A stretch of 64,000 nucleotides of DNA, taken from Alitta virens. Taxonomy: Eukaryota > Annelida > Polychaeta > Phyllodocida > Nereididae. Below the pieces are notes generated by a model. The model was given only the letters and a program-made list of their open reading frames with translations. It was not told the DNA's origin and did not search any database. This document shows positions 1-51,764 of the stretch, one piece after another (position 1 is the stretch's first letter; every line of letters starts with the position of its first letter). The stretch lies in the NCBI GenBank assembly GCA_932294295.1, contig OW028585.1:23248313-23312312 (forward strand), read 5' to 3'. The position numbers and the translations under genes were made by a program.

Positions 1-3000
1 GATCATAAAAAGTAATTTTTATTAATGCAAAAAGCATTAATGATTATGTAATGTTAACAATTTATCAATATACTGTATGTACCTTTTTGAGAAATGAAGC
101 TAGGAAAATAACATTTGTTCATAGTATAAGTACAGTTAGGCGGGGGGGCAGAATGCCACAAGTACTCATTGTCGTGGTGCGAAAGTTGGTTCTATTCTTG
201 GGCCAACCTTGTCACAACTTCCTTTATTTTTCTTCTGAGAAATGAAATTTTAGAATTGAGTCAATTTCTTGTTTTACTTCTAAATATGATAGCTTCCTTG
301 TAATCAGTGAGATAATTAATCTGGTCACTAATGTTTTCCACTATTTAGATAAGCCTATTAGGACCTAATTAGAAAGTTTTCCTTTGTTCAACATTGCAGT
401 CTAATAACACTTCCCATTGAATTACACAATTTTAAAGCCGTTTATTTAACTATACTTTTGTCCATCATACATTACAATAAAGCAATTCCTATGTGTGTAT
501 GTGACCAATTTTAACTAATTTATGCAGGTATACATTCTGAGTGTTTGAGAATAATAAATATTGTTTATGAGAATTTGGCTTATGAAACCATAGGCCTAGG
601 TCCACAGAGTCCAGGTATTGCTATGTCCACAATAAGTTATACATACAACATACATGTATGCAGATAACGTTTTAGTTGGGGGGGGGGGGGGTTATTTCAT
701 CCAAATAACCAAATAAATATATATATATTATATTTATTTAAAGGTGCCCTAAAATAAAATTTAAACTTTCTTACTTTTGTTAGCCATGTGAAAATTGGAA
801 ATTTCAGATTCCTAGGTTAATTGGTTAATGTTGAGCCCTAAAAAACAGACTTTAAAGTTGACATTCTCCAGTCATAATTACTGCAGTTGAAGAAGTAGCT
901 CATTGTTGACATATAGGTTTTTTGTGATCTCATGTTGGTAAAATTCATTCATTTATATGCATGATCTAACATCACAAACTAATTGCGCTGACCAGGGGTC
1001 AAGTGCCTGGGAATCACTGAGGTGTGACCAAGATGCACCATGAACAAAACTTTAAGCAGGAGATTCACTTTAAGTTTGTGGTTTTTAGTGTTTTAAAATT
1101 ACATGTATTTGCAGTATGACCAGTGAAAGTTTGTTTCCAATATAAATGCCAACACCTTGATAAAATAAAATAAAATCCATTTTAGGGCACTTTAAGATTA
1201 CATTTGTCCATATCAAAATATGATGTCTTGGATTGAGGGCAATGCGACAGACATTATTTCAGTTATGTCTTATGATTTTGTTTTGGAATAAATAGATACA
1301 ATAAAAGCGATAATTAGCTACATATGAGATGTTTAAAGCCGAGATAGGATGACATGAGAGGTTGATCATTGTAAAATTGCATGGTTTCATCAGCAATGAA
1401 CTCAGTCTGATAAATGCAATTGATACAGTCAATTCTCAGTCATACAGTACGCCAGTGGGTGCTTCAGAAGCATCTGCACATTCTGGTTTTCCTCAAAGTT
1501 TACCTCGGTCACTTGTCCCACCATTTGGCCCAGTCTATATATTTGATGGGCACCCTGCCCCCCTGGTTTAACATAAACCTTCATCTCTCGGCTATTTATA
1601 CCCTATAATCTTCCAATTTACATTAACATGATTATTTTTCTAATGCCTAAAAACTGAGAAATTAGATTTATATAAGCATCCATAATTAGCCAATTATTAT
1701 TAAATGCCAAAGACATAAAAGTTCAGAGGAGAGGTTACCTCAGGAAGGAAGGAATTCTTATAATTGAAGAAATTACCAGCAGGTTAAAAGTTCTGAAGGT
1801 CCATATTCATGTACTGGAATTTTTTGATGAGCCTCAAAATAAAATAATGTAACTCTTCAGGTCAAAAGTATAGAAAGAGGGTAAAACAAATCATCCCATA
1901 AATGGTTATGACCTTCTCATATAGGGTTAATGGGCAATAAAGCACCTTGTCCGCACAAGTTTAATATTTTTATGGGGTTATAATGACTCAAACAGTATGT
2001 TTGCCATTAGCTGCAGATGTTGATATGAAAATATGAATGACACCATTATAGTCGTTGACCTTAATCGCACTGCCGTAAATTTGGATTGAAGATTTCAGTG
2101 TTAATGTCAAGATGCCATGGAGTGACTCCATGATATATCCAAGAATACATAACAAGAGCAGCCCAATTTAAGCCTAAAATGTATGAAACATGATGCTCAG
2201 ATTACATGTCATTTTCATTTAACCATGGAGCCAAAAGTCAATCATCTACTCTGTAACGTAAGTTAGGATGGTTAATTTGCCATGTGACAATATAAAATAT
2301 CCATACTTGCTTCCAGTATATTGATTGTGCGATTCAGCACATTTTTGATAAATATTTGCACTGATTCTTAACATTTCCTTTCGTTTTTTATTCAATTGTA
2401 TGAGCAATTAAACATATTGGTTAGGCATGATCGAACAGGGTACTTTTATTGGAAGGCGCGGAAAAACGGGTACACACATGGGGCAAAATGAGACATTGAA
2501 AATTCTCTTACCTTTTGGCACTGTCACCAAGTGTAAATAGTATAAATTACCTAATGGCATCGCAGATATCTCCATAACAGTAATTTCAATGATCCAGACA
2601 CTTTGTGTTAATATGCGAAAAAATGTATTTTTCTTAAAATATTTATCTTTTTGGGAAATTGCAATTAAATAGGTTAATGAACGTGACTCATTAATGTATG
2701 ATATTCACTCTGGAAGAGCAATTACTGTAGTTGATTTTCAGTTATAAATTTTGAGTGTAATGGACATAATTTGTTATTGTTGATTAACTTCATTAAATAA
2801 GTCCATGGGAGCAAAATGGGACAGACTGAATGGGGCAAAATGGGGTCGCCCAGATATCATTGCTAATGTCCCCATTTTGCCCCACTTCCCTTTTTCTTTC
2901 CTTTTTAACCGTGAATCTCTAAACCTATTATGATATTGAAACAGGGAAAAAAATTAGAATGAGACACAGTAAAAAAAACACGATGTGACATAACCAATTT

Positions 3001-3433
3001 TCTACCAGTGACATATAGTGGTAGACTACCACGATATAGATAGCCCATGATTAAATCAACATTATTTTTGGGAAATGTGTTTCACTAAAGACATTCACTT
3101 ACTGCCCATTAATATGCCTTTTGTCTTTTAGCTAATCAGGATCATGTTTTTGGTATTTTGACTGATGTGAAAGGTATTCAAGAAAACATAACCCTTGCTG
3201 AAATATATAAAATACATTAAACTTGACATATATATATGAAATTCTATACAAGTCACCCTACAAGGGAACAAGTACTACTAATCTCCCCGTTATTTCCTAT
3301 ACATTGCATAAAGGAAAACTTTATACCACTAAATTCTAGTTAGGTTGATAGGATCTTTAGGATCCAGACAGCATTTCGGATTATTTCATTCAATTACACA
3401 CTGGTAATTACTGTGCATATTTTTTTTTTTCAG
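1..3433. other. Left arm 5' flank, no clear gene
   Basis: AT-rich sequence upstream of the kinase exon. It contains a G run at 678-690, short AT repeats, a MITE-like unit near 2,478-2,886 and a 69-codon open frame at 1,362-1,571. That frame is preserved in the right arm at 31,322-31,531, but an overlapping frame is equally preserved, so this is not evidence of coding. A promoter or 5' exon of the kinase-transposase gene should lie here or further upstream. I cannot point to one. Confidence 0.5.
2478..2886. mobile_element. MITE-like unit with TGGGGCAAAATG ends
   Basis: atggggcaaaatgagaca near 2,478 is opposed by gtccccattttgccccac near 2,868-2,886. A further internal inverted pair (tggggcaaaatgggg at about 2,830 against the right end) can form a hairpin. 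There is no coding sequence between. The same unit is in the right arm near 30,010-30,425. The ends suggest a non-autonomous DNA transposon; the family is not identified. Confidence 0.45.
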
Positions 3434-4565
3434 GTGAAATTATTCCTGTTCAGCAACAGCAGTACCATGAAACGTGGTGTACGACGCAAGTCATTTGACG
3501 CCCAACCTGCACTCCTGCAACCACCGGTGCCAATCAACAATGTCACCTGCATTGACAAAAATGATCTCAAATTTTTGAAGTTCATTGTCAGTGGCACATA
3601 TGGGCAAGTCTTGTTATACCAGCATGGCCTAATCAAATGCGTGATGAAGGAGAGCATCCACAACACCGATGTGTGTAATAAACTGTTCATCAAAGAAATG
3701 CAACTGCTTAGTGCAATCAACCATGCTAACATTGTGCAATTCATTGGCATTGTGAGGGACACTGAGCAGCAAAAATTCGGGATGCTAATGGAGTATCTGT
3801 CGTTCGACTTCAAGCATTATTTTGATGGACAATGTCCCCCCTCCGTTTCAACTTTGAGTTCTTTCATGAGAACTTTGAACAAAATAAAATTCGAAGACAT
3901 GGAACATTTTCAGTTATTCATAGCAAGGGACATTGTGAAAGGACTGCAGCATCTTCATGATATGGGGATTGTGCACAGAGACTTGAAACCTGATAACATT
4001 CTCATATCCAATCAACATTTCGAACATGTTGATTCATCATATCTTGATGAAATGTTCTTCAAAATACCTGTGGTGGCAAAATTAACAGACTTTGGGGAAG
4101 GAAGAGCTGAACTCATACAAACGGCCACTGTATTTTCCACATGCACTGGCACCCTGAATGCCCGGAGGGGTACTCCACCATACATGGCTCCTGAAGTATT
4201 GTCTCATGATGGCATATCTCCCCTAGGTTTGCATGAACTCAAATTAGCTGATGTCTGGTCAGTTACAATGGTCCTATTTATGATGCTAAATCCTGATTCA
4301 ACCTGCCCATTCTACTACGAGTACAGCAATGCCAAGAAACACAATGACAATGCAAACAAGGAACCATGTGACATTTTCAAAGATGTTATCACTGAAGGAC
4401 GCATGCCCATGGAAAGCCTGCAGTACTCAGAAATACGAGAACTAAATGATCCATGCTTCGAGATGCGTATCTGATGGGGGCCCGCTTCAATCCATATGAG
4501 AGACAACCACTCAGCAAAGTACTTCAGTGCCTTGAACTAGCTGTTTCGTCTTCACAAGCTCAAAT
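3434..4565 (+). pseudogene. Protein kinase exon, left copy (frameshifted)
   Basis: This exon encodes a eukaryotic protein kinase domain. It follows a T-rich acceptor ending cag at 3,433, with a good start at 3,467 (accATGa), and ends at donor GTAAGT (4,566). Visible motifs are a glycine loop at residues ~40-47 (SGTYGQV), the beta-3 lysine in VMKE (~60), HRDLKPDN (~170), DFG followed by EGRA, GTPPYMAPE and DVWS. This is a full, apparently catalytic kinase fold, Ser/Thr or dual-specificity by HRDLKPDN. In this copy the first loop glycine is replaced (IVSGTYG; the right arm has IGSGTYG), which may weaken ATP binding. The reading frame stops at 4,474 within the last kinase helices, but the next frame continues with kinase-like sequence to the donor. 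A one-base indel present in both arms therefore breaks it. The exon is the first recognisable part of the kinase-protease-transposase gene. Confidence 0.85.
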
Positions 4566-7482
4566 GTAAGTGTCCTTTAAATTCATTTTCTATTGTTCAG
4601 TGCTGCCCCCAGCCCCTAATCAAAATTATGTGGATACCATAAAATACAGCAATCAACCAAGGAAGTTTGTAATGCCTACATAGGCGAACCATGAAGCCTT
4701 AGCCCCTCATGCTGCCCAAGCTCCAGGTCTAATGAATAAAAGCAAATGCTAATTAATAGTAATACAAATGTAATGAATCCAAAAGCATGAAAACTATATA
4801 ATAAAAACATGTGTATAAAAGATGTGTAATACTGATATATAATGAGCATCCATCATGAAGGTTGCAAATATATATAAGAACAGGCCACAGCTTAAATTAA
4901 TATTGGCTTATATAGGAATTAGCAAAGTGCCTATATATAAGTTATCATGTTTTGGCGATTATTTAGGTGTATATTTCCTAAGTAAAATGTTCTCTCTCTC
5001 TTTTTCTCTCGCTCAATCAATCAATCTTTATTCGCCTCAGTAATTGAGATCATTGAGAAATGAGCATGTCTACATAAACATACATAAATCATATCATATT
5101 ATGCAAAGTGCATGACTACATTATTTCTCAACATTTTTATGGATTAACATACATTACCAGAATTCAGGGAATATAGCAGGATTATTAAAATTTCCATATT
5201 TTCATTATTATAAAAAAATAATGAAGTAAATGTAAAATTAAAATTCTAGCTAAACTTTATGTATCTTGGTATCATAATAATAGTTGAGATGTAGAGTTTT
5301 GCGAAAATATTAGTTTTTCACATTTCCCCTCATCATAGACCGCAGGGCTTTTATAGCTATAGAGATTGGCCAGAAATGAAATCTAATATTTACAATAACT
5401 TACAATCATGTCTGTTAAGTACAATTGGAAAGAATAAAAAAAGGTGGATGTTCATTATTATCTACCGTAGTGTAAACAATGAAATTGCATTAATGTATTA
5501 GTATGAATTGCAAATATGCAAATATCTGATTGGACTAAACATTAATCAGATACTTTTTTTATATAAGAATTACAGCATACATGTCATGTTTGATATCATT
5601 TTGCATGTTTTTTTATGACAAATTTGATGGTGATGTTAAATAATCAATATTTACAAGTTCCACGAGTTTCATACTTGAAATATACTTCAAACAGCCACTA
5701 AATTGGACCCATATTGTGGCCAGCTGGTACTTGTTATGCTTGGCTGATCAGAAGGCGTTAGCCAATCTAATTCTGTCTTCATTTAAAATATTTTCTTCAA
5801 TACATTTACTTAAGATAGGCGCACCAATAAATATATTCTTTCACATTCTTTAAAGCACAATTTTCTCTTGGTGTTGGGTTCAGATGTATGTTTGCCACAT
5901 ATACATATATAGTTCTCCAAACTTTTAGGGATATCATTGTAAACATAGAGCACCCATCCTCGGTCCACACTTGGATTTAGGGAAAATTACAAACAAATCA
6001 ATTTGCAACTATTTTTCATCTTTTCCATTATGAAAAAGGTATGAAATGAATGTCAAAGTGAAGTCTTGAGAGGGAAAGCACTGTAATTTATACATTTTGT
6101 AGCCAAATTAAATTTTTGTAGGTATAATCTTGGTGAAATTAGAACAGGAGAGAACACTGAAGCACAAAAAACACGCCCCTAATTGAGGAGCAATAGTGCA
6201 ACAATGAGCATGAAATATACATATCAGTTTTAAGCATATTTATTAATATTGCATGATATGCAGAATTTGATTTTTCGGAGCACTAAAGCTCCTCTACATC
6301 TCCACCTACATACATGAAGTTTAACTTGTAAAAGGTCGAAATCATAGTAATGTAAATTTATTTCAAAACTTTAACATCACATATATTTCATACTTTTTCA
6401 TTATAATGGAAATTTAGTGAAATTATAAAAATTTGTTGTTGCTACATTGCGTAAACCATGGAGTGTATGTTTACTATGACATCCATACAATTGCCTACGT
6501 AAAGTTATATAAATAGGTATTTAATTTTGATGACTTTCTAGATATCATACTCTTAATATATAAGATATCATGATATATTTATGAAAAGAAAGTGCCTAAA
6601 TAATTGGTCAAAGAATGTTTTAATTCACCCTTTTGTCAAATATCTCTAATGCCATTTCTCACTTTGGTCTCCCATCAATCAGTTTAAAGACCCTTTACAC
6701 TTCAATATTTTATATTTAATGCTGCAGTTTATCACAACATTGTGCAGTGAGTCATGAATTACAATCCTTAATATTTTGAATCTGAAACTTATACACAGAC
6801 AGTAAAGTAGGTTAATAGATTGGATTAATTGTGGTATCATGCATATGGTTATTTAATTGGTTCATTCCTTGGCGAGATAAAAAGTGTTCCACTCCAATCT
6901 GCATTATTTTTGCCACTGGCATGATCTGGTGTATGAAATGACAAAATAAAATAAAAAATTTATCATTTGCCCCATGGGTAAATTATTTGACAAAAGTAAA
7001 GATATCTCCAACCCCATGTGTTGGACTATCCAGCTTTAAAAGATGAAATGCTGAAAACATGTATGTAATTAGGTTTCAAACAATTTTAAATTTGTAACAT
7101 TTCTTTTTTAAAGGAGATTTAAAACTAAACACCCCAATTTATAACTCTCCTCTCCCCTTGCAAGCAATTTGTAATTGCATCATAATTTTCATATAAACAG
7201 ATAATTAAATCTAAACAAATTAGACGGCAGTATACTGAAATATTTATCTCTGTGTGAGTATTATGATGTATATGGGGTATGAGTGGACATAGTGCAGGCA
7301 ATGAGGATCAATGCAATCCACTGCAATCTGTATTGGTGATGATGGTTCTTTTTTCTTTTTTCTTTGCATATAGAACATTTGATGTACTGAGAAGCATCTA
7401 CTAAGCCATTATACCTAATAGTTAAGTAAATTAACAAGCAAAGTTATCTCTAGTCAAATAAAGCAATGTTTGATTATTGCAG
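4566..7482 (+). other. Intron-like interval, left arm
   Basis: Non-coding AT-rich sequence between the kinase exon and the 17-residue-repeat exon. It holds a CT-rich stretch near 4,991-5,015 and a truncated dispersed repeat (about 5,580-5,760) related to copies at 27.1, 33.4 and 46.4 kb. No convincing exon was seen. Confidence 0.55.
5580..5760 (+). repeat. Dispersed repeat family R1, truncated copy
   Basis: The stretch with catgtttgatatcattttgc and cttgttatgcttggctgat recurs at 46,440-46,640 (same orientation), and at 27,150-27,330 and 33,430-33,620 (opposite). Here it ends abruptly at ctgatcagaaggcgttagcc. The right arm continues with ~270 bp more of the element, so this copy has probably lost its outer part. 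Confidence 0.7.
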
Positions 7483-7979
7483 GGAGGCTGCTGGACTTGT
7501 TGAGTGTAGCAACAATGAGTTGCATTTGGCTTCATCGGTGGGAAGAACCTCTACAGATGATCAAGCTGAAGTAGAAATTGCTGAAGCAGATGGAAGGACT
7601 TCAATGGAGGACCAGGCTGAAGTTCAAATCGCTGAAGCAAGTGGAAGGACTTCTATGGAGGACCAGGCTGAAGTTCAAATCGCCGAAGCAAGTGGAAGGA
7701 CTTCAATGGAGGATCAGGCTGAAGTTCAAATCACCGCAGCAAGTGGAAGGACTTCAATGGAGGACCAGGCTGAAGTTCAAATCGCTGAAGCAAGTGGAAG
7801 GACTTCTATGGAGGACCAGGCTGAAGTTCAAATCGCCGAAGCAAGCGGAAGGACTTCAATGGAGGACCAGGCTGAAGTTCAAATCGCCGAAGCAAGTGGA
7901 AGGACTTCAATGGAAGACCAGGCTGAAGTTCAAATCACTCAAGCAGGTGCAAGGACCTCAACAAAAAGACAATCTACTG
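7483..7979 (+). CDS. 17-residue tandem-repeat exon (8 units)
   Basis: Exon between acceptor ag at 7,482 and donor GTAAGG at 7,980. It is open throughout and encodes eight near-perfect copies of a 17-residue unit, consensus GRTSMEDQAEVQIAEAS, each from a 51-bp DNA repeat. The first and last units are more diverged (GRTSTDDQ..., ARTSTKRQ), as expected when unequal exchange homogenises the middle. The unit is acidic and hydrophilic with periodic alanines and glutamates, perhaps a flexible or helical spacer. No known repeat family is recognised. The intron phases (2 before, 1 after) connect to the next small exon. The mirrored exon has six units. Confidence 0.65.
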
Positions 7980-8086
7980 GTAAGGATATGAAATTATCTA
8001 TCAAGTTGTGTCACCTCTTTGCATTTCAATACATTGGTGAACTTGCAGACAAAAAACCATAAGTTGCACTTTTTTTGTCATCATAG

Positions 8087-8176
8087 GTCCAGGCAAAATG
8101 TCAGTGTCAAGAAAGAGGGTTGTGGAAGGATACAATGATGAAATGCCCAGTAAGAAGACAAGAATGGTTATTGAGG
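8087..8176 (+). CDS. Short basic linker exon, left copy
   Basis: A 90-bp exon with acceptor atag (8,086) and donor GTGAGT (8,177), phase 1 on both sides. It encodes lysine/arginine-rich sequence (SRKRVVEG, PSKKTRMV) that resembles a nuclear localisation signal. It is conserved with the same borders in the right arm. It links the repeat exon to the protease part of the gene. Exon status is inferred from splice signals, open frame and phase agreement. Confidence 0.5.
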
Positions 8177-8724
8177 GTGAGTTTCAGTTATATCTCATGT
8201 GAATAATACCTAGTTTAAAAAATATACTGTGAATCCTAATAATTTTCTGTTACTTGTTGAAACCGACTGAGTAAGGCTAAAACATTACCTATAAGCAGGG
8301 TAAGATGAGCCATTGTTTCATATATTTCTGATTTATTCATGATAAAGGTATTCAGCACAGTTGACACTGTGGTCATATCTGCCTCAGATGTTGTTATTGT
8401 ATACTATGCTGAAAACACCCTTAGTGCAATTAAACTCATACCCCCCCCCCCCAACACCCCCTTTTCAACAGTGGCTCATCTTACCTCCCTCCACCTTGCA
8501 CTGAGCAACACATGGGAGTGATCATTAATTTTGTTGTACCTAATCTTTTATCGTATTCTGTTAGAATTACATTGAAGATTTTCACTTGTGCTGATATTTC
8601 TCATTCAAAGTGATGGGAGTTGATATTAACAAATGTAGAATAGTGAACTCCTTTTTTTAAATTCTTTAAATCTAATGTAGTCATACTATTCCTACTAAAA
8701 TGGCCCCCCCCCCTTTTTTCACAG

Positions 8725-8768
8725 ATGACATAGGATTCCTGGACTGCATCAGTCTGCTTGATCCGCAG
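8725..8768 (+). CDS. 44-bp linker exon, left copy
   Basis: Exon between a pyrimidine-rich acceptor (tttttcacag, 8,724) and donor GTATGT at 8,769. It is open in the phase delivered by the previous exon and encodes about 15 residues including FLDCISLLDPQ. The mirror exon is at 23,951-23,994. Confidence 0.45.
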
Positions 8769-10524
8769 GTATGTACCGTTACTGCAATTTCTATAATGAT
8801 CATTCATATGTCAAAGATAACATAGAATGAGAATCATAGTTATGAGTAATTAAATACGAAGTGAATAATCTTCAAGGAAAAACATTTCAGCTTCAGAATT
8901 GAGCCGAAATGCAACAATTTCTTAATTAAATAAATATCTAATAAACAAATATTTGTGGGACCTATGGCTGGTTGAGAACATTGTTATGATATATTTCATG
9001 AAATCAAAGCTGACCCCAAAATAAGCTTGCTCATTTTCCATTAAGGCTCTGCACATTATGTTTTTATTTGAGTTGAGCTCACTATATGCTGATTTATGAT
9101 TAAGCTAATGGGGTCTAAAACAGGCAGTTCTTGCAAACTGTCTTACAGATGCGCTGGAAGGTTTGCATACTTCTTGACAAAATAAAACTTATGGCATAAC
9201 CAAAATCTGTTGTATCATTTAAAAGAGGGTCCCAGAGCATATTTTATGTTATATAGTATATCGGATGCTAGCAACAGCCAATTGGCTTGAGTGTATTCCC
9301 ATTTACATAAGGGTCACAAAATGTACTAAACAATTACACAATGGTTTATTGTGAGACATCATATGTACATCCTCAAATGTCATATCCAACTCAGACTTCT
9401 GCTGGCTATACATTTATTTGGGGTGAACATATCTTCATGACTCAAATGTAACATTCGTGCAGAAGCAATAGGTTTACACTAGATACGACTTTAAATAAAA
9501 ACAGAACATACGTTACATACGTATAATTCAACCCAGAAGTCTGACATGCTGACACTTATCCCATTGCCAAGGTTATGAATTGTTCTAGCTCTTGAGTGGC
9601 TTCACGTGGAGGAAAATAATTTTATCCTGAAAATTCTATTAAATTAAATCATTTTACATATAAATCTAGATTAAAAAGCCGACTGAGTAAGGCAAGACCA
9701 TTCCTTATTCCAAGTAGCCACTAGTGCCTCATGCTAATTCTATTTGAAAAATTTAAAGTAATCTTACGGATAATCACCAATATATGAACTGCACTGACAG
9801 CTACTGACAAACAATAGAGTCATTCAATGGCTCGTGGAACTCTAAAAGCAGTCTTAGTAACTAGTTACTATACACACTTATCATTAAACTAACACTTGGC
9901 ATGTGAAAAACAACTATTGGGGGATACTGATAATATCTGATGAGGGAGCAGAGCTAAACTAGGCAATGGTTATTTAGATTATTGGGATAAATTGATCAAT
10001 TATCAACCAAGCCTGCCCTGTGATATTTTCTGAGTGCCTATTTTCATGGAAGTTATTATTCTATTGCAAATCTAATCCAGTGGCGGCTCCAGGATTCTGG
10101 ATTGCAAATGAAGATGTGGCGTAGGCACAGAAAATTTTCACTGTTTCACTTTAAAAAACTGCATTTTGGACTACAGTGTATTCTGAAACTCTTTTTTAAG
10201 TGTTACATCAGATCTTTTTTACATGTTACTTCATGCTATTGACAGTTATTCAATTCCATATATATATATATATATATATATGATTCAGCTTAGCATTTCT
10301 TTAACAAATGATTAAATCAAGGAACAGAACCAAGTGCCACGGTATGACCTATGTATAAAATAGATCTATACTGGGATCCATAATAAATATCCACTTGTTT
10401 TTTGTTAATATTCACAACAATTAAACCCCATCATGCAACCCCCCCCCCCCTTTCCCCTCCTGGAGCTGCCCTTGATCCATTTAAATTCTGTAGTGGATTG
10501 ATTTTTCTTTTGCTTTGGTTTCAG
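8769..10524 (+). other. Intron-like interval, left arm
   Basis: Non-coding, AT-rich. It includes an (AT)n run at about 10,258-10,280 and a MITE-like unit at 10,078-10,476. No other exon was seen. Confidence 0.5.
10078..10476. mobile_element. MITE-like unit with GGCGGCTCCAGGA ends
   Basis: The left end, cagtggcggctccagga at 10,078, faces tcctggagctgccctt at 10,458-10,474, giving imperfect terminal inverted repeats. A 12-C run sits just inside the right end. CAGTGGCG-type ends are common in short non-autonomous DNA transposons of marine invertebrates. The right-arm copy is at about 22,230-22,640. Confidence 0.5.
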
Positions 10525-11253
10525 GGATCATGCATCTTTGGAAAGATACATCAAGCCTCTCCAGATGTCTTTGACCATGAAGCCGCTGGTCACAGTGCTC
10601 TACCATTTCGATGATGGCAATTGTTGCACAGCACTTAAAGCCAATGAAACATTGGAAGTCTGAAGACCTGGATGCTATTGTGACAGAGGGAGACCGTCAC
10701 CATGTGTCTCGATTAGTTTATTTGGGATGGCCATCCAATAGAGATGATACAATGTTGGATATTGACGAAATCCCTAGTGTCATGAACTGTAGGCTGTGGG
10801 GAACCAATACCTCAGTAAGCTTAGGCTTTACTGAGGGAGCTGTTTACGGATTTACCAACCAAATCAGTGATATGCTGAAAAAGGCTGTTAAATGTTATCC
10901 AAAAATGTCTTTTCTGCTGAGGATGCAAGGTAGATATCGTGCTCTTTTGTACAAAATCAGCCAATACAGCTTGTTTGATCCCCACGCCTGCAATAGCAAG
11001 GGTCTACCAGATCCAAATGGCAAGGCGTACCTGCTGTCATTCCATTCTATTGATGACGTCATACGACATCTTAACTACATAGCTGAACATTTTCCCTATG
11101 ATCAAGTTGACATCAACCCAGTGTTTGTGGCAGTCTTGGCAGGAGATGAGGCACACTCTGTATTAGCTTCAGCAGATGAGGTCCTCTGCATATCATCTTC
11201 GGCAGATGAAGGCGATGACAGTGACAACCTGTTAACAGAGGAGCCCTCCAAAG
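10525..11253 (+). pseudogene. OTU/C76-like cysteine protease exon, left
   Basis: Exon with acceptor tttcag (10,524) and donor GTAAAT (11,254). The main open frame (10,611-11,253, with the frame extending back to 10,593) shows the pattern of a papain-fold protease related to OTU and herpesvirus-tegument (C76-type) deubiquitinases found in many transposon proteins. It has a Gln-Cys pair with following MMAIV helix (10,593-10,619), a WKSEDLD...EGD block, and LFDPHACNSKG with the candidate catalytic His at 10,983. An acidic tail follows (SADEGDDSD). The residues just upstream (about 10,525-10,590) are open in different frames, and a frame break falls immediately before the Gln-Cys pair. The same break is in the right arm. 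The role would be ubiquitin or SUMO-like cleavage, by family analogy. Family assignment is from motif spacing only. Confidence 0.6.
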
Positions 11254-12053
11254 GTAAATCCATTTGTCAAGCTAATGTCAACTGGCTGGAACATAATAGC
11301 AAAAAAGTTAAGATTTAATTTATTCACCTGGCTAATGCCTGAGCTAAAGTTTAGATTTTTGGACAGAAAACCCCTCAGGTTTTATTTTGGTATAGATATT
11401 TAAGCACTTTTGACTGTCATCCGGTGAGATGAGTGACTTTTTGATTTGGTTGAAGTTCATATCTATCTATTGATATACCTAGCTAGCTAGCTAGCCAGCT
11501 ATCTATATAACTGTTTATCTCTTTTTAATTACTACTTAAATTACATGATGGAGAATTTCATCGGTCAAGAATTAGGGAAATATGATATTTTAGGGGCACC
11601 CCTTGATAGTGGCAACTGGCCTTAGTGAGGTGTCCTTACAATAGAAAAACGCATGTGATAATTATCTAGTCACTTATTTTTGTTAAAATTTGGTTCCTCG
11701 TCATTTATTATTTTATTGTCTCCATTACAAAAAGTGATCATCTCACTCTGACTCCATGTTTAAGAGGAGGCCAAGAGCCAGCATTTGTCTTTAAGTCATC
11801 ATTTTGATACTTTCAAAGCACACCAAAAAAATTAATGTGAGGCAGGAAAGAGTTAAACTTTGGTCTTTCCAAGCAAATGCTGTAGCTCTAAAATCCATTC
11901 CAACATTGTTAGGTTAAGAATATTATTTGTATTTGACAAAATGTGGTATTTATTCCTGCATTGAATGTAGAATAACAATGTTTCTTTCTATAATTTATTC
12001 TATAATATATATAATTTTTTAATACATCTAATGATATACCATTGCACTTACAG
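11254..12053 (+). other. Intron-like interval before transposase exon
   Basis: AT-rich, including a short tagc repeat (about 11,481-11,497). Nothing coding seen. Confidence 0.5.
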
Positions 12054-14691
12054 ATGCAGTGTGTCCAGTTTTTGAACACAGAAAGGAAGGCCTAAGGACC
12101 TCTGACCTAGTGCGGCTGTGCTGTTTCACAGAATATGCTGCTTATCAGACCTGCAAAACTGTTCCATCGCCCGCAAGTAATTCAACATTTGTTGTTGACC
12201 TTTCTGCTGTCAATGTTTCCAATTTATCTTGTGATGACTCTGGTAGTTATGCCAATAATTCATCCCCTTCCGCCATTGTCAGAGCAACTATTGAAAATGG
12301 ACAATTGTCCGTAAACATTATTAAAAGGAAAAATGTTAACAGAACAAATCCTTTGTTAAGTAGAGATGACATTTATCTTGTTAAACGTCTCTACAGTGAC
12401 AAAATCAATCAAGTACACCAGAAATTAAAGCGCATAATTACCAAAGTCATCACAAGGAATGGATTAGCTAATTATGCTGTGATACAATACCTAGGTAACA
12501 CTCACAAAAATTTACATAGACCCCATGGAAATTCCAAACTTGGTGCAACAACATTTGTCAGAACAAAGCCATCTGTCCTGAAACGCCAAAAAGAACTGGC
12601 ACGTTATGAAACGCCAAAAAATATTGTGAATATTATTGATGAAGAAAATGCAGGTGTTTTTGGTGCTAAAGCACCTAGTGATATTGCTAGAGATAGGCAA
12701 CAGGTGTACAATATTAAAAAACATGTTCAGAATGCAAAGAAGTCCAGGAACACTGGCAAAGTTGTTACCCCAAATTTTGCCAAACTAATAGCTATCATGG
12801 ACAGTGGCAATTTTGTAAAAAGTGTTGACTTTGACCTGAGACAGCCTTCCAACAAAATCTTCCCTTTAACTTTTGCTTCATCAGACAACTGTCTCAGGTG
12901 GATCTCAACGTTTTGTACCCCTTCTTCTAAAATAAAATCTCAACTCTGCGTGGATATGACATACAAAGTAGGACCCTTCTACACCACATGTGTTTCATTT
13001 GCAAATCCTGTAATTGTTCACAAGTCTAGAAAAAGGTGCACATCCTACTTCCTTTTTAAGCATGATGACTAGCACCACAAGAAATGTACAGGACTACTCT
13101 TTCCTGGCAAGCCAGTTAAAGTCCAGATGTGGTGACAGTCTGATAATATGGTACTGATGGTGAATTAGCACTTGAGACAGCATTTGAGAACGTGTTTCCT
13201 ATAGACCCTCCTGGGCACAATGCCCACAAAGCTAGCCTTCATTTAAGATGTTTTAACCATGTGCATGACGATATCAAAAGGAAATTGCAAGATATTGAAT
13301 CAAATAATCCAGATCAAATAATCAAATCCATCTTGGGGGCGGAATTAAATGGACAGAGACAGAGCGGGTTGGTGGATCAAGATCTTCCTAACTTCAACAA
13401 AGCCTATGAAAATGCCGCCAAAGCATGGCCAGCTGGATTTAAGGATTACATGGAGAGCAAGCGTCTCAGGGTAAGACCAATGAAGGACACTTTATTGTTG
13501 TGCATGGGTAAGCAGGTAAGGATTGATGCTGGACTTGGCAATCCACCTAACAAGTTTAACAATCAGAGAGCAGAGTCCATGAACAGCATCCTTAAGGAGA
13601 GCATTGGTGGCAACTTTGTAGATCAAGCCCACATCCATGAGCTTGTCCATGCCAATATTGTAATTCCTCATGAGCGGGAAATGATCAAAGCTCTCTATGG
13701 TCAAGGTGAGTATAGGCTCTCCAAACACTTCAAACATCTAGAAGTATCACCACAGGTATGGAGAGGAATGACAGAGCAGCAGAAAGAACTTAAAATAAAG
13801 AAGCTATTCTTGATACCACCTGCACAATCTGGCAGACCAATAACAAGAAAACTCTCAGTTCAACCTGAAGAGTTTAACGAAGAGATGGGGAATCTCCCAC
13901 GAAGCCTGGTTAGAATTCTATGGAAACAAGCAGAAGAAATTATATCACACGATGCCATAAAAGAACTTCAAAATGGCTCTGTATGCTTGATTCAGCCTGA
14001 TGGTGCAACTGTTGTCTCCTGTGATGGTCGAAGGCTCTCTTGCAAATGTGAGCAGTATGGCAAACTGCAGATTTGCCATCATGTACTAGTGGCAGCTGAC
14101 TTTAAAAACGTATTGCTGGATGTGATTGGGACGTACACTTATAAACCGTCACATGCCATTCATTGCCATAAACCAGATGGAGCAGGCGAAAAAAGGAACA
14201 AGAAGCTGCGAAAGGGCAACCAGCGAGTAGTTTGTCAACCAATTGAGCACTGCTTACCTGAACCTGCTACACAGGGTGAAGACATAAGCCTCAGCAGTCC
14301 AAGGCCATTCCAGTACTGTGAGATTTGGCACAACGATAAGCCTTTTTATCTAGTGAACATCAGTGATATCAACAAACCATCTTTGAAGTGCCAGACCTGT
14401 AACTGTGTATTAAACAGCAAAAATGCACTACCGCCATATGACATCATTTTCAAACATGAAGAAAGGTACAAGTACCCTCAAAAAGATGACCATGGCAACA
14501 TAACTGGCTGGATTCCCACACGTAGCAAAACTGCCCAGAGGTACTACTGTGTCAGACGATCATGTCTTTTAACCCGACATCCATACTTCTGGAATGGACT
14601 CATTAATGTTGATGCTGCACTTATGGATTCTCATGTCATCTTTTTGCAGCGAAAGTTGAATTTCAGTCCTCCATCCCTTCGCTTATATTGA
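12054..14691 (+). pseudogene. MULE-like transposase with SWIM finger, left
   Basis: Last exon of the palindrome gene, from acceptor ttacag (12,053) to the stop at 14,689-14,691. The catalytic pattern fits Mutator-like (MULE) DDE transposases: first Asp in CVDMTYK (12,953), second Asp in TDGE (~13,156), a Cys/His pair in RCFNHVH (13,249-13,260), and Glu in RAESMN (13,573). A SWIM zinc finger (CxC at 14,041 and CxH at 14,074) and further Cys pairs follow. Two frame changes break it. One is private to this arm (an extra A in an A run near 13,029, opening a path to the stop at 13,070). The other, just before the second Asp (about 13,150), is shared with the right arm. Start of the exon follows phase 1 from the protease exon, so protease and transposase were probably one polypeptide. 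It would have bound element ends and catalysed excision and insertion in the nucleus. Confidence 0.8.
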
Positions 14692-15407
14692 GTCTACTCA
14701 TCATCATCTTCCCCAATGCTGAGCCTGTCTTGTAAGTCATGTCTACTCATCATCACCTTGTCCAATGCTGAGCGTCGTCTGGTGTCTCGTAAGCTGTGTC
14801 TACTCATCATCTTGCCCAATGCTGAGCCTGTCTCGTAAGTCGTGTCTACTCATCATCAACTTGCCCAATGCTGAGCCTGTCTCGTAAATCTTGTCTACTC
14901 ATCATCATCTTGCCCAATGCTGAGCCTGTCTCGTAAGTCGTGTCTACTCATCATCACCTTGTCCAATGCTGAGCGTCGTCTGGCATCTCGTAAGCCGTGT
15001 CTACTCATCATCATCTTGCCCAATGCTGAACCTGTCTCGTAAGTTGTGTCTACTCATCATCATCTTGCCCATTGCTGAGCGTCGTCTGGCGTATCGTAAG
15101 TCGTGTCTACTCATCATCACCTTGTCCAATGCTGAGCGTCGTCTGGCGTCTCATAAGTTGTATCTACTCATCACCTTGCCCAATGCTGAGCCTGTCTCGT
15201 AAGTCGTGTCTACTCATCATCACTTTGTCTAATGCTGAGCGTCGTCTGGCGTCTCGTAAGCCGTGTCTACTCATCATCATCTTGCCCAATGCTGAGCCTG
15301 TCTCGTAAGTCGTGTCTAATCATCATCACCTTGTCCAATGCTGAGCGTCGTGTGGCGTCTCGTAAGCCGTGTCTACTCATCATCATCTTGCATAATGCTG
15401 AGCCTAT
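14692..15407 (+). repeat. 49/57-bp minisatellite, left arm
   Basis: A tandem array starting directly after the transposase stop, of two interleaved unit types. One is ~49 bp (ttgcccaatgctgagcct...), the other ~57 bp (ttgtccaatgctgagcgtcg...). Both share tgtctactcatcatca. There is no coding sense: frames stay open only because the units are short and regular. It is about 715 bp here against about 1.2 kb in the right arm. Confidence 0.9.
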
Positions 15408-15560
15408 CTAGTAGGGCGTGCTTTGCGTGTAGGCCTATACCCATTTTTTCTGCTGTTCATTTGTTATAAAATCAAAAAGGCTCAATTGATTTGCCTCAAA
15501 CTTTCAGACAATGCTCACAACATATACAAAATATTAAGATAAATATAAATAACAACAATG

Positions 15561-16557
15561 GACATTGATGTTTGAGTGGGGCACTGTTAAGATTTAATAA
15601 GTACTTTATACAATAAAACCAGGCACTTTTGACATATGGTCCTCCATTCAAAGTTGCTTTATTTTATTCAAGGAAGACAAATATGCCATAGTTAGGTTAT
15701 TTAAGCCATTTTCAAGGATGTGAAGTACAGTGATCTGGCCACAGCTTAAATTTACACAAACATCAGTGATGTCACTGGCAATCTTCACAAGGCTCAGAAG
15801 ATATTTCGTAAAACCAATCTTATGAAGTATCTATATCTCTATGAGTTCTGCTATTATAGGATATGTATGGATTGAGATTCTGATACAAAAATCTTAATTT
15901 CAGTGAACATAACCCTGGACAATGTAAAATGTAGGGAATTTCGCAAAATTTGTTACACAAGGAATATGTTATTAAAGGTGTACAAAACAACTATTGGCCA
16001 AACTCCAATAAAAAATAAAGCACAAAACACAAATATTACCACACAAAGTTTACAGATAACAGAAATTCAATAACAATGGAAACGTTGTTCCAAGCATATA
16101 ACTATCTGACAACCATCGGAAATTAGTATACAAAATATATGAAAAGAACAATGAAGAAGAAAATGTATTTGTATCAGCTCTGGTGGAAACCTTTTACAAA
16201 CAATGTGAACTAAACAGGATACTGTCATTTTCCTCAGTTTATTAAGAAATAATAAACCTTGAAAAGATTTGTATTGTAAAACAGTTAATAGTATTCTGCT
16301 GTGTAATATTGTTATAAAGAGGAAGTTTACCAAACTTGGTGCATTAACACCAATACAACATCAGGGTACACTGGCAAAGAGGAGCGAAGGTCTTTATATA
16401 TATATATATATATATATATGAGGACCGTTTGTTTTGATGCCAAACAAAGTAGGAGGTTCAACTTTAAATCACATAAGGCCTAGTGCAAAAATAATGAAGC
16501 CTTTGATATCATATTTAGTCTTACATTAAATACAACTGTACTTCTAATTCTACAGTT
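15561..16557. other. Unique spacer at palindrome centre
   Basis: About 1 kb that is not mirrored. It is AT-rich with a (TA)n run near 16,398-16,420 and no convincing coding sequence. A minus-strand 88-codon open frame at 16,067-16,333 resembles no family I recognise and has no mirror copy. The spacer separates two convergent transposon gene copies. Confidence 0.8.
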
Positions 16558-16699
16558 GTTATTTATATTTATCTTAATATTTTGTATATGTTGTGAGCAT
16601 TGTCTGAAAGTTTGAGGCAAATCAATTGAGCCTTTTTGATTTTATAACAAAATGAACAGCAAAAAAATTGGGTATAGGCCCACACGCAAAGCACGCCCT

Positions 16700-17915
16700 A
16701 CTAGACAGGCTCAGCATTATGCAAGATGATGATGAGTAGACACAGCTTACAAGACGCCAGACGACGCTCAGCATTGGGCAAGATGATGATGAGTAGACAC
16801 GGCTTACGAGACGCCAGACGACGCTCAGCATTGGACAAGGTGATGATTATTAGACACGATTTACGAGAAAGGCTCAGCATTGGGCAAGATGATGATGAGT
16901 AGACACGGCTTACGAGACGCCAGACGACGCTCAGCATTAGACAAAATGATGATGAGTAGACACGACTTACGAGACAGGCTCAGCATTGGGCAAGATGATG
17001 AGTAGATACGGCTTACGAGACGCCAGACGACGCTCAGCATTGGACAAGGTGATGATGAGTAGACACGACTTACGAGGCGCCAGACGACGCTCAGCATTGG
17101 GCAAGATGATGATGAGTAGACACGACTTACGAGACAGGCTCAGCATTGGGCAAGATGATGATGAGTAGACACAACTTACGAGACAGGTTCAGCATTGGGC
17201 AAGATGATGATGAGTAGACACGGCTTACGAGACGCCAGACGACGCTCAGCATTGGACAAAGTGATGATGAGTAGACACGGCTTACGAGACACCAGACGAC
17301 GCTCAGCATTGGGCAAGATGATGAGTAGACACGGCTTACGAGACGCCAGACGACGCTCAGCATTGAACAAAGTGATGATGAGTAGACACGACTTACGAGA
17401 CAGGCTCAGCATTGGCCAAGATGATGATGAGTAGACACGGCTTACGAGACGCCAGACGACGCTCAGCATTGGACAAGGTAATGATGAGTAGACACGACTT
17501 ACGAGACAGGCTCAGCATTGGGCAAGATGATGATGAGTAGACACGACTTACGAGACAGGCTCAGCATTGGGCAAGATGATGAGTAGACACGGCTTACGAG
17601 ACACCAGACGACGCTCAGCATTGGACAAGGTGATGATGAGTAGACATGGCTTACGAGACGCCAGACGATGCTCAGCATTGGACAAGGTGATGATGAGTAG
17701 ACACGGCTTACGAGACGCCAGACAACGCTCAGCATTGGACAAAGTGATGATGAGTAGACACGACTTACGAGACAGGCTCAGCATTGGGCAAGATGATGAG
17801 TAAACACGTCTTACGAGACGCCAGACGACGCTCAGCATTGGACAAGGTGATGATGAGTAGACACGACTTACAAGACAGGCTCAGCATTGGGCAAGATGAT
17901 GATGAGTAGACACAG
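16700..17915 (-). repeat. 49/57-bp minisatellite, right arm
   Basis: Reverse-oriented counterpart of the left array, with the same two unit types in a different order and more copies. The extra ~500 bp shows gain or loss of units after the arms separated. Between the array and the transposase stop lies ~100 bp (about 17,916-18,014) absent in the left arm, where the array abuts the stop through shared gagt. Confidence 0.9.
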
Positions 17916-18014
17916 ATTTAAAGTCACGATTTCAACTCTGATCTTCGACGAGGCAAATGCATGTCATCCAAAGTTAATCTAATGCATGTCCCTTTATGAA
18001 GAAATTTCGAATAC

Positions 18015-20651
18015 TCAATATAGGCGGAGGGATGGAGGACTGAAATTCAACTTTCGCTGCAAAAAGATGACATGAGAATCCATAAGTGCAGCATCAACAT
18101 TAATGAGTCCATTCCAGAAGTATGGATGTCGGGTTAAAAGACATGATCGTCTGACACAGTAGTACCTCTGGGCAGTTTTGCTACGTGTGGGAATCCAGCC
18201 AGTTATGTTGCCATGGTCATCTTTTTTAGGGTACTTGTACCTTTCTTCATGTTTGAAAATGATGTCATATGGCAGTAGTGCATTTTTGCTGTTTAATACA
18301 CAGTTACAGGTCTGGCACTTCAAAGATGGTTTGTTGATATCACTGATGTTCACTAGATAAAAAGGCTTATCGTTGTGCCAAATCTCACAGTACTGGAATG
18401 GCCTTGGACTGCTGAGGCTTATGTCTTCACCCTGTGTAGCAGGTTCAGGTAAGCAGTGCTCAATTGGTTGACAAACTACTCGCTGGTTGCCCTTTCGCGG
18501 CTTCTTGTTCCTTTTTTCGCCTGCTCCATCTGGTTTATGGCGATGAATGGCATGTGACGGTTTATAAGTGTACGTCCCAATCACATCCAGCAATACGTTT
18601 TTAAAGTCAGCTGCCTCTAGTACATGATGGCAAATCTGCAGTTTGCCATACTGCTCACATTTGCAATAGAGCCTTCGACCATCACAGGAGACAACAGTTG
18701 CACCATCAGGCTGAATCAAGCATACAGAGCCATTTTGAAGTTATTTTATGGCATCGTGTGATATAATTTCTTCTGCTTGTTTCCATAGAATTCTAACCAG
18801 GCTTCGTGGGAGATTCCCCATCTCTTCGTTAAACTCTTCAGGTTGAACTGAGAGTTTTCTTGTTATTGGTCTGCCAGATTGTGCAGGTGGTATCAAGAAT
18901 AGCTTCTTTATTTTAAGTTCTTTCTGCTGCTCTGTCATTCCTCTCTATACCTGTGGTGATACTTCTAGATGTTTGAAGTGTTTGGAGAGCCTATACTCAC
19001 CTTGACCATAGAGAGCTTTGATCATTACCCGCTCATGAGGAATTACAATATTGGCATGGACAAGCTCATGGATGTGGGCTTGATCTACAAAGTTGCCACC
19101 AATGCTCTCCTTAAGGACGCTGTTCATGGACTCTGCTCTCTGATTGTTAAACTTGTTAGGTGGATTGCCAAGTCCAGCATCAATCCTTACCTGCTTACCC
19201 ATGCACAACAATAAAGTGTCCTTCATTGGTCTTACCCTGAGACGCTTGCTCTCCATGTAATCCTTAAATCCAGCTGGCCATGCTTTGGCGGCATTTTCAT
19301 AGGCTTTGTTGAAGTTAGGAAGATCTTGATCCACCAACCCGCTCTGTCTCTGTCCATTTAATTCCGCCCCCAAGATGGATTTGATTATTTGATCTGGATT
19401 ATTTGATTCAATATCTTGCAATTTCCTTTTGATATCGTCATGCACATGGTTAAAACATCTTAAATGAAGGCTAGCTTTGTGGGCATTGTGCCCAGGAGGG
19501 TCTATAGGAAACATGTTCTCAAATGCTGTCTCAAGTGCTAATTCACCATCAGTACCATATCATCAGACTGTCACCACATCTGGACTTTAACTGGCTTGCC
19601 AGGAAAGAGTAGTCCTGTACATTTCTTGTGGTGCTAGTCATCATGCTTAAAAAGGAAGTAGGATGTGCACCTTTTCTAGACTTGTGAACAATTACAGGAT
19701 TTGCAAATGAAACACATGTGGTGTAGAAGGGTCCTACTTTGTATGTCATATCCACGCAGAGTTGAGATTTTATTTTAGAAGAAGGGGTACAAAACGTTGA
19801 GATCCACCTGAGACAGTTGTCTGATGAAGCAAAAGTTAAAGGGAAGATTTTGTTGGAAGGCTGTCTCAGGTCAAAGTCAACACTTTTTACAAAATTGCCA
19901 CTGTCCATGAGAGCTATTAGTTTGGCAAAATTTGGGGTAACAACTTTGCCAGTGTTCCTGGATTTCTTTGCTTTCTGAACATGTTTTTTATTATTGTACA
20001 CCTGTTGCCTATCTCGAGCAATATCACTAGGTGCTTTAGCACCAAAAACACCTGCATTTTCTTCATCAATAATATTCACAATATTTTTTGGCGTTTCATA
20101 ACGTGCCAGTTCTTTTTGGCGTTTCAGGACAGATGGCTTTGTTCTGACAAATGTTGTTGCACCAAGTTTGGAATTTCCATGGGGTCTATGTAAATTTTTG
20201 TGAGTGTTACCTAGGTATTGTATCACAGCATAATTAGCTAATCCATTCCTTGTGATGACTTTGGTAATTATGCGCTTTAATTTCTGGTTTACTTGATTGA
20301 TTTTGTCACTGTAGAGACGTTTAACAAGATAAATGTCATCTCTACTTAACAAAGAATCTGTTTTGTTAACATTTTTCCTTTTAATAATGTTTACGGACAA
20401 TTGTCCATTTTCAATAGTTGCTCTGACAATGGCGGAAGGGGATGAATTATTGGCATAACTACCAGAGTCATCACAAGATAAATCGGAAACATTGACAGCA
20501 GAAAGGTCAACAACAAATGTTGAATTACTTGCGGGCGATGGAACAGTTTTGCAGGTCTGATAAGCAGCATATTCTGTGAAACAGCACGGCCGCACTAGGT
20601 CAGAGGTCCTTAGGCCTTCCTTTCTGTGTTCAAAAACTGGACACACTGCAT
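18015..20651 (-). pseudogene. MULE-like transposase with SWIM finger, right
   Basis: Mirror copy of the left transposase exon, from acceptor ttgcag (20,652) to the stop at 18,015. The Asp, Asp, Cys/His, Glu and SWIM motifs are all recognisable. It lacks the left-arm extra A, so the first part stays open from 20,646 to 19,549. It shares the frame break before the second Asp. It also has two private nonsense changes: a Trp codon became TAG near 18,940, and a Glu codon became TAA near 18,740. No functional transposase can come from this copy. Compared with the left arm, amino-acid differences are few (for example KTDSLL for RTNPLL), consistent with a young duplication. Confidence 0.8.
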
Positions 20652-21452
20652 CTGCAAGTGCAATGGTATATCATTAGATGTATTAAAAAATTATATATAT
20701 TATAGAATAAACTATAGAAAGAAACATTGTTATTCTACATTCAATGCAGGAATAAATACCAGATTTTGTCAAATACAAATAATATTCTTAACCTAACAAT
20801 GTTGGAATGGATTTTAGAGCTACAGCATTTGCTTGGAAAGACCAAAGTTTAACTCTTTCCTGCATCACATTAATTTTTTTTGGTGTGCTTTGAAAGTATC
20901 AAAATGATGACTTAAAGACAAATGCTGGCTCTTGGCCTCCTCTTAAACATGGAGTCAGAGTGAGATGATCACTTTTTGTAATGGAGACAATAAAATAATA
21001 AATGACGAGGAACCAAATTTTAACAAAAATAAGTGACTAGATAATTATCACATGCGTTTTTCTATTGTAAGGACACCTCACTAAGGCCAGTTGCCACTAT
21101 CAAGGGGTGCCCCTAAAATATCATATTTCCCTAATTCTCGACCGATGAAATTCTCCATCATGTAATTTAAGTAGTAATTAAAAAGAGATAGACAGTTATA
21201 TAGATAGCTGGCTAGCTAGCTAGCTAGGTATATCAATAGATAGATATGAACTTCAACCAAATCAAAAAGTCACTCATCTCACCGGATGACAGTCAAAAGT
21301 GCTTAAATATCTATACCAAAATAAAACCTGAGGGGTTTTCTGTCCAAAAATCTAAACTTTAGCTCAGGCATTAGCCAGGTGAATAAATTAAATCTTAACT
21401 TTTTTGCTATTATGTTCCAGCCAGTTGACATTAGCTTGACAAATGGATTTAC
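20652..21452 (-). other. Intron-like interval, right arm
   Basis: Mirror of 11,254-12,053. AT-rich, nothing coding seen. Confidence 0.5.
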
Positions 21453-22181
21453 CTTTGGAGGGCTCCTCTGTTAACAGGTTGTCACTGTCATCACCTTCAT
21501 CTGCCGAAGATGATATGCAGAGGACCTCATCTGCTGAAGCTAATACAGAGTGTGCCTCATCTCCTTCCAAGACTGCCACAAACACTGGGTTGATGTCAAC
21601 TTGATCATAGGGAAAATGTTCAGCTATGTAGTTAAGATGTCGTATGACGTCATCAATAGAATGGAATGACAGCAGGTACGCCTTGCCATTTGGATCTGGT
21701 AGACCCTTGCTATTGCAGGCGTGGGGATCAAACAAGCTGTATTGGCTGTTTTTGTACAAAAGAGCACGATATCTACCTTGCATCCTCAGCAGAAAAGACA
21801 TTTTTGGATAACATTTAACAGCCTTTTTCAGCATATCACTGATTTGGTTGGTAAATCTGTAAACAGCTCCCTCAGTAAAGCCTAAGCTTACTGAGGTTTT
21901 GGTTCCCCACAGCCTACAGTTCATGACACTAGGGATTTCGTCAATATCCAACATTGTATCATCTCTATTTGATGGCCATCCCAAATAAACTAATCGAGAC
22001 ACATGGTGACGGTCTCCCTCTGTCACAATAGCATCCAGGTCTTCAGACTTCCAATGTTTCATTGGTTTTAAGTGCTGTGCAACAATTGCCATCATCGAAA
22101 TGGTAGAGCACTGTGACCAGCGGCTTCATGGTCAAAGACATCTGGAGAGGCTTGATGTATCTTTCCAAAGATGCATGATCC
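21453..22181 (-). pseudogene. OTU/C76-like cysteine protease exon, right
   Basis: Mirror of the left protease exon, same length (729 bp) and splice borders (acceptor tttcag, donor GTAAAT). It has the Gln-Cys motif, the EGD block and LFDPHACNSKG. Differences from the left copy are a handful of residues (Lys for Asn in WGTKTS, Asn for Ile in LYKNSQ, Glu for Ala in VLEGDE). The same frame break precedes the Gln-Cys pair in both arms, so it predates the duplication or was spread by gene conversion. Protease family assignment rests on motif spacing. Confidence 0.6.
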
Positions 22182-23950: not shown

Positions 23951-23994
23951 CTGCAGATCAAGCAGACTGATGCAGTCCAGGAATCCTATGTCTT
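23951..23994 (-). CDS. 44-bp linker exon, right copy
   Basis: Mirror of 8,725-8,768 with the same splice sites. One residue near its start differs (aagacatagg for atgacatagg). It encodes the FLDCISLLDPQ linker. Confidence 0.45.
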
Positions 23995-24541
23995 CTGTGA
24001 AAAAAGGGGGGGGGGGGGGCCATTTTAGTAGGAATAGTATGACTACATTAGATTTAAAGAATTTTAAAAAAGGAGTTCACTATTCTACATTTGTTAATAT
24101 CAACTCCCATCACTTTGAATGAGAAATATCAGCACAAGTGAAAATCTTCAATGTAATTCTAACAGAATACGATAAAATATTAGGTACAACAAAATTAATG
24201 ATCACTCCCATGTGTTGCTCAGTGCAAGGTGGAGGGAGGTAAGATGAGCCACTGTTGAAAAGGGGGTGTTGGGGGGGGGGGGGTATAAGTTTACTAAGGG
24301 TGTTTTCAGCATAGTATACAATAACAACATCTGAGGCAGATATGACCACAGTGTCAACTGTGCTGAATACCTTTATCATGAATAAATCAGAAATATATGA
24401 AACAATGGCTCATCTTACCCTGCTTATAGGTAATGTTTTAGCCTTACTCAGTCGGTTTCAACAAGTAACAGAAAATTATTAGGATTCACAGTATATCTTT
24501 TAAACTAGGTATTATTCACATGAGATATAACTGAAACTCAC

Positions 24542-24631
24542 CCTCAATAACCATTCTTGTCTTCTTACTGGGCATTTCATCATTGTATCCTTCCACAACC
24601 CTCTTCCTTGACACTGACATTTTGCCTGGAC
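24542..24631 (-). CDS. Short basic linker exon, right copy
   Basis: Mirror of 8,087-8,176 with identical length, borders and phase. It encodes the same lysine/arginine-rich segment. Conservation of splice sites in both arms supports exon status. Confidence 0.5.
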
Positions 24632-51725: not shown

Positions 51726-51764
51726 CATTATATTTCTTTGTAATGGTCAGTTTTATACTGTACC

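Follow-up and report, generated by a model that had tools for sequence, protein, structure and literature searches.

We analyzed a stretch of 64,000 nt from the annelid Alitta virens (assembly GCA_932294295.1, contig OW028585.1, positions 23,248,313 to 23,312,312 of the forward strand), which is called the window throughout. It harbors, twice and in inverted orientation, what is probably a single gene composed of a protein kinase, a repetitive linker, a cysteine protease resembling the viral-tegument-like deubiquitinases (VTDs) and a transposase resembling those of Mutator-like elements (MULEs). In the left copy (arm A), six exons were placed by eye from the sequence on the plus strand between positions 3434 and 14691. 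The exon borders are GT-AG, the junctions are phase-compatible, and the intron phases are 2, 1, 1, 0 and 1. The kinase exon, the 17-residue repeat, the cysteine protease and the transposase have the place, strand and phase-compatible order that an initial annotation of the window had claimed for them. The features of this arm are as follows:

3434..4565, plus strand: exon 1, Ser/Thr protein kinase, assigned from the Pkinase match and the reading frames (ATG at 3467, frame break near 4460, phase-2 donor at 4566)
7483..7979, plus strand: exon 2, tandem repeat of 17 residues (51 bp), 7.8 copies
8087..8176, plus strand: exon 3, short basic linker, matched in the copy at C6:20.58 Mb
8725..8768, plus strand: exon 4, short linker, matched in the copies at C6:20.58 Mb and C13:17.6 Mb
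10525..11253, plus strand: exon 5, VTD-like cysteine protease with Q-C and D-x-H motifs (frame break near 10590)
12054..14691, plus strand: exon 6, MULE-type DDE transposase with a CxC...CxH motif (breaks near 13030 and 13150)
14692..15420, plus strand: tandem array of 49/106-bp units, beginning immediately 3' of the transposase stop codon

The 51-bp units of exon 2 (92% matches) form an array that is in frame with the gene, and the linker between kinase and VTD is repetitive and rich in Ser/Thr and acidic residues.

The kinase exon matched Pfam Pkinase with E = 7.6e-32 (110 bits, cut-off 31.7), and the HRDLKP and DFG motifs were invariant across 18 aligned kinases. Among the best 120 matches, 17 relatives (P0029–P0045; the named sources are Mytilus edulis and, for P0045, Clytia hemisphaerica) stood at E ≤ 2e-29, and the next match followed at 3e-13. 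A second domain followed the kinase in six of these 17 proteins. The five complete second domains (P0036, P0038, P0040, P0041, P0045) have an N-x-C ... D-T-H pattern and could possibly represent another tegument-type protease. The second domain of P0038 matched the structure 8adb weakly (E = 0.34), P0036 gave a Herpes_teg_N match at 0.061, and the matches listed in a fold search with the P0038 model were taken up by kinases. We also considered homology of the C-terminal domain of P0038 to the window VTD and rejected it, as the hhalign probability was 0.8 and BLASTP of the VTD-containing protein P0027 (see below) against P0038 returned nothing. In the viral contigs that were searched, no relatives of the window kinase or transposase were found.

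The protease had been described as OTU/C76-like. A cysteine protease was indeed present, but OTU was not among the Pfam matches listed for the window protease or P0027, and a VTD assignment, based on the structure match described here, was preferred to OTU. P0027 is a metagenome protein of 1082 aa that aligns to the window protease and transposase with 37% identity and 99% coverage. The open reading frame (ORF) of the window protease alone matched Herpes_teg_N with E = 0.0067, which is under the Pfam cut-off, and the read-through protease piece containing X gave no Herpes_teg_N match in the Pfam search. P0027 was just above this cut-off (26.0 versus 25 bits). A profile built from the window protease and P0027 matched 8add with E = 3.4e-6, the only significant structure match; the herpes large tegument protein 7et3 (0.022) and 8adb (0.65) were not significant. 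The 8add entry is labelled DNA helicase, and we take it to be the zebrafish helitron VTD of PMC9741609. A QC motif together with D-P-H or D-S-H was present in exon 5 of the window, in the copy at C6:14.98 Mb and in P0027, and an Asp-x-His motif has been described for VTDs (PMC9741609, main text). By its motifs and profile match, the window protease is thus most likely a VTD rather than an OTU protease. The predicted model of P0027 was unreliable over the VTD (predicted local distance difference test, pLDDT, ≤65 by blocks in the first 200 residues), and we therefore made no fold claim from it.

For the transposase, a search of the protein database yielded 26 homologous proteins (E ≤ 0.001). The top match is 70% identical over 100% of the length; named relatives come from Mytilus galloprovincialis and Desmophyllum pertusum. 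The DDE catalytic residues lie in an RNase H-like core resembling that of the IS256 group, and C877, C879, C888 and H890, which form the CxC...CxH motif, were invariant in 23 aligned transposases. Pfam SWIM was detected in 6 of these 23 at E ≤ 0.1 and was above the cut-off in P0019. Pfam MULE (PF10551) was detected in three of the 23 at E ≤ 0.1 (best 0.002); the two bit scores obtained, 18.9 and 14.3, are under the cut-off of 27.6. We therefore regard the protein as a divergent MULE-like transposase and not as a canonical one. The earlier view of exon 6 as a MULE DDE-SWIM exon is supported by the DDE core and the CxC...CxH motif but not by PF10551. The window loci were absent from the 64 PF10551 matches across the genome. 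These matches represent other MULE families, some of which have open frames of 1092 codons (C7, C11).

To see whether kinase and transposase also occur together elsewhere, we searched the genome (671 Mb, 23 contigs); only the best candidates were scored, and all counts are therefore lower bounds. The transposase exon gave at least 38 matches at E ≤ 1e-10, which were merged by hand into 22 places, and the kinase exon gave at least 12 loci at E ≤ 1e-20. A query with the kinase of a second subfamily (II, see below) at E ≤ 1e-15 returned the identical 12 loci and none besides. All 12 kinase loci lay upstream of a transposase place on the same strand, at a distance of 8.7–11.3 kb for ten of them and of 30.3 kb (C14) and 34.3 kb (C3) for the others. 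The initial annotation had named a kinase without the transposase as an argument against a common gene, and the search revealed no such copy. Among the loci found in this genome, the kinase family is tied exclusively to the transposase.

The copies fall into two subfamilies, whose transposases are 52–55% and whose kinases are about 40% identical. Subfamily I comprises the window, C6:20.58 Mb and fragments; subfamily II has nine places with kinase (C6:14.98, C11, C8, C14, C7, C3:42.0, C10, C9 and C4). Copies within one subfamily are near-identical and were therefore counted as one event. Because the kinase–transposase pairing is shared by two subfamilies with about half-diverged transposases, it is old. 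The presence of the VTD was read at both window arms, C6:14.98, C11, C14, C6:20.58, C1 and C13:17.6 Mb; within subfamily II, long flanks were read at three of the nine places (C6, C11, C14) and the kinase also at C8. Kinase, VTD and transposase had the same order as in the window at C6:14.98 and C11 (subfamily II) and at C6:20.58 (subfamily I). At C14, VTD and transposase were present within the 24 kb read, and the kinase was 30 kb away from the transposase. The copies at C6:14.98 and C11 share a block of 25.8–28.2 kb with sharp ends on both sides, which is 97–99% identical over long aligned stretches, indels aside. In subfamily II, a coding repeat exon with a 30-bp unit (5.6 and 9.2 copies) lies between kinase and VTD, and the array 3' of the transposase has units of 315–317 bp versus 49 to 106 bp in the window. 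The length of the linker differs between copies, as the 51-bp and 30-bp repeat exons vary in copy number.

In the window, the whole gene is present twice, since it lies within an inverted repeat whose arms measure 15.5 kb or more:

1..15556, plus strand: arm A of the inverted repeat, reaching the window edge (the outer end may lie beyond)
15557..16554, no strand: unique spacer between the arms, about 1 kb
16555..32876, minus strand: arm B of the inverted repeat, with the second gene copy
16709..17914, minus strand: arm B tandem array with units of 57 bp and more
18018..19559, minus strand: transposase of arm B (3' part) with two in-frame stops
21388..22125, minus strand: VTD-like protease of arm B, open part
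24656..25162, minus strand: repeat exon of arm B, 5.8 copies by tandem-repeat search
28439..29428, minus strand: kinase of arm B

Judged against the relatives, frame breaks near 4.46, 10.59 and 13.15 kb are common to both arms. The break near 13.03 kb is private to arm A and the two stops are private to arm B. By its reading frames, the window copy is a pseudogene. The initial annotation had noted neither the duplication nor these lesions. Its reading of the parts as one gene is supported insofar as kinase and transposase are components of the same repeated unit. Between the arms, we counted 12 synonymous differences in 1039 sites and 37 nonsynonymous differences in 3809 sites (ratio 0.84), and the noncoding parts differed by 1.0%; the differences between the two arms look neutral. 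The 51-bp array has 5.8 copies in arm B (24757–25051) and 7.8 in arm A (7565–7961). A stretch of 286 bp, possibly a later insertion, is present only in arm B, opposite position 5752 of the window.

The palindrome may be real or may be an assembly artefact. The difference of about 1% between the arms is within the possible allelic range, and it is conceivable that the inverted repeat joins two haplotypes and that the link of kinase and transposase is accidental. This explanation of the link is highly improbable: ten further loci on nine contigs also have the kinase upstream of the transposase in the same order, which makes the link independent of the palindrome and refutes the pairing as an artefact.

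We compared arm A with the copy at C6:20.58 Mb to look for selective constraint. The kinase had 7 synonymous differences in 132 sites and 3 nonsynonymous differences in 495 sites (p = 0.001), corresponding to a ratio of nonsynonymous to synonymous rates (dN/dS) of 0.11. The transposase had 14 in 533 synonymous and 16 in 1924 nonsynonymous sites (p = 0.003). In this one pair of copies, kinase and transposase look to have been under purifying selection before the window copy decayed. This bears on the idea that a single MULE copy captured a host kinase by chance, without any function of the kinase for the element. MULEs are known to capture fragments of host genes (PMC6446971, PMC8277862), and the kinase showed no constraint among the recent copies of subfamily II. 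Nevertheless, we consider chance capture improbable, as none of the 12 loci of the kinase family was found away from a transposase, the kinase is common to two about half-diverged subfamilies, its dN/dS was low in the sole comparison with enough changes, and the 17 relatives are set apart from ordinary kinases among the best 120 matches.

Whether kinase and transposase belong to one protein was addressed by the exon junctions. In the copy at C6:14.98 Mb, five GT-AG exons join into 985 stop-free codons, which begin at the start of the kinase and extend into the transposase. This was the only open frame among 81 frame combinations, and it ends where the transposase frame of this copy breaks. In both subfamilies, the kinase exon has a phase-2 end, and a phase-1 intron separates VTD and transposase at the same position. 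Directly after the phase-2 donor the sequence runs into a stop codon, again in both subfamilies, so that retention of the first intron would give the kinase alone. A kinase-only product alongside the fusion is therefore possible. Four of the ten kinase relatives without a further domain have a C-terminal Arg, which would fit read-through of an AG|GTAA donor.

Alternatively, the element could have two genes, one for a separate kinase and one for a VTD-transposase that starts from its own ATG, which in the window would lie in exon 3. This exon indeed contains an ATG in frame, with a basic stretch after it, and P0027 starts with its VTD. The closest kinases are mostly short (11 of 17 have 298–449 aa in a search restricted to proteins of 293–931 aa), and the two proteins annotated with VTD/transposase terms that were found among candidates of 936–2977 aa have no kinase domain listed. 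We regard two genes as unlikely, though clearly less so than chance capture or an artefact, because the junctions are phase-compatible in both subfamilies, with the 985-codon frame as one in 81 combinations, and because a phase-2 splice donor closes the kinase exon in both. The terminal Arg residues, as expected from read-through of the donor, would also argue against two genes.

Taken together, we consider it probable that the window contains a decayed, inversely duplicated MULE-type transposon with a single multi-exon gene for kinase, linker, VTD and DDE/CxC-CxH transposase. Several observations weigh against this interpretation. No kinase was found at 10 of the 22 transposase places: C1, C3:7.85 Mb and C13:28.5 Mb, for which more than 15 kb upstream was read, are partial or decayed copies, and C13:17.6 Mb has kept repeat, linker and VTD, while the 10 kb read there contained no kinase. 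No copy was intact throughout among the window arms, C6:14.98, C11, C14 and C6:20.58. The VTD matches of C11 and C14 do not include the segment that bears the catalytic cysteine, the kinase of C6:20.58 lacks its first 115 residues, about 100 N-terminal residues are missing in four of the nine subfamily-II kinases (C8, C9, C11, C14), and the C4 kinase is split. The VTD of arm A versus C6:20.58 had 5 synonymous differences in 156 sites and 8 nonsynonymous differences in 570 sites (p = 0.17). Between the window and C1, dN/dS was 0.93 for the N-terminal part of the transposase and 0.85 for the VTD, with 0.26 for the C-terminal part of the transposase. Between C6:14.98 and C11, the kinase had 1 synonymous and 4 nonsynonymous changes (ratio 1.1; few changes), and the ratios were 1.1 for the C-terminal part of the transposase and 0.16 for the VTD, based on very few changes; one transposase segment of the C6 copy was excluded. 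It may be that recent copies are merely in decay. The MULE superfamily is characterized by terminal inverted repeats (TIRs) and a target-site duplication (TSD) of 8–11 bp. No TIRs were found where the block common to C6:14.98 and C11 ends; the block ends of C6:14.98 showed no TSD, and the only TSD candidate at those of C11 was a 9-bp repeat that is displaced and contains one mismatch. Animal MULE groups without TIRs are listed in PMC6446971 (main text). Six of the nine subfamily-II copies (C7, C8, C9, C10, C11, C14) are located about 0.55 Mb or less from a contig end, and some copies may therefore stem from subtelomeric duplication and not from transposition; the clustering may reflect either an insertion preference or such duplication. 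Finally, one continuous protein from kinase to transposase is deduced from genomic sequence, and P0027 has VTD and transposase in one ORF with no kinase there.

How the element may work can be outlined as follows. The DDE domain would cut and join the element. The VTD could trim ubiquitin from the transposase complex or from nearby host factors and thereby stabilize it; stabilization by removal of ubiquitin has been proposed for the VTDs of helitrons (PMC9741609, main text). The kinase, held in cis, would act on the transposase, on the repeat linker or on host factors of DNA repair or chromatin, and phosphorylation by the element's own kinase may time or license transposition. We slightly favor the view that an animal transposon lineage carries kinase, kinase-substrate-like linker, deubiquitinase and transposase as one protein, by which the element itself would bring phosphorylation and removal of ubiquitin to the transposition complex, and that retention of the first intron frees the kinase.

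Transposons that contain deubiquitinase or SUMO-protease domains are known. Among them, MuDR-6_HM of Hydra (MULE group 14, PMC6446971) is similar in being an animal MULE with one ORF, no TIR listed and a deubiquitinase-type domain; it has an OTU domain where the window element has a VTD, and the word kinase does not appear in the main text of that article. According to the main text of PMC9741609, Helitrons and Helentrons with VTD, also found in molluscs and cnidarians, have the same deubiquitinase family within a DNA transposon protein, but use a rolling-circle RepHel instead of a DDE transposase. The same text reports cnidarian VTDs fused to transposon-associated domains and does not contain the terms mule, mutator or kinase. 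Ulp1-bearing Mutator elements and Ginger1 elements that have OTU/Ulp1 (PMC2836005) likewise combine a DDE transposase with a cysteine protease acting on ubiquitin or SUMO. Their protease class differs from the VTD of the window and is C-terminal in Ginger1, and the main text does not mention kinase. A survey of arthropod MULEs (PMC13359780) contains none of the terms kinase, OTU, protease, SWIM or Herpes. The proteins closest to the window kinase, P0029–P0045, include some that run into a second domain resembling a tegument-type protease.

In the literature searched, in which a Repbase entry could have gone unnoticed, no MULE with kinase or VTD was found, in agreement with the earlier statement that no described element is known to carry a complete kinase as well. 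Within this literature, a MULE with kinase and VTD in one gene is most likely new; published elements include MULEs that have OTU or Ulp1 and VTD-bearing helitrons. A transposon that retains a kinase within its gene would suggest that a signalling module of two enzymes can travel on mobile DNA. Kinase-dead and protease-dead versions of the element would provide direct tests of the roles of the accessory enzymes.

The second half of the window contains a further repeat and a probable mobile element. A minisatellite at 49384–50091 consists of 31/63-bp units followed by 40-bp units. On the plus strand, 53482–56616 encodes a DNA polymerase B of the viral/organellar type (PF03175, E = 1.2e-44), and the neighboring ORFs span 51117 to 63244. 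This region presumably represents an element of the adintovirus/Maverick type, which it resembles.

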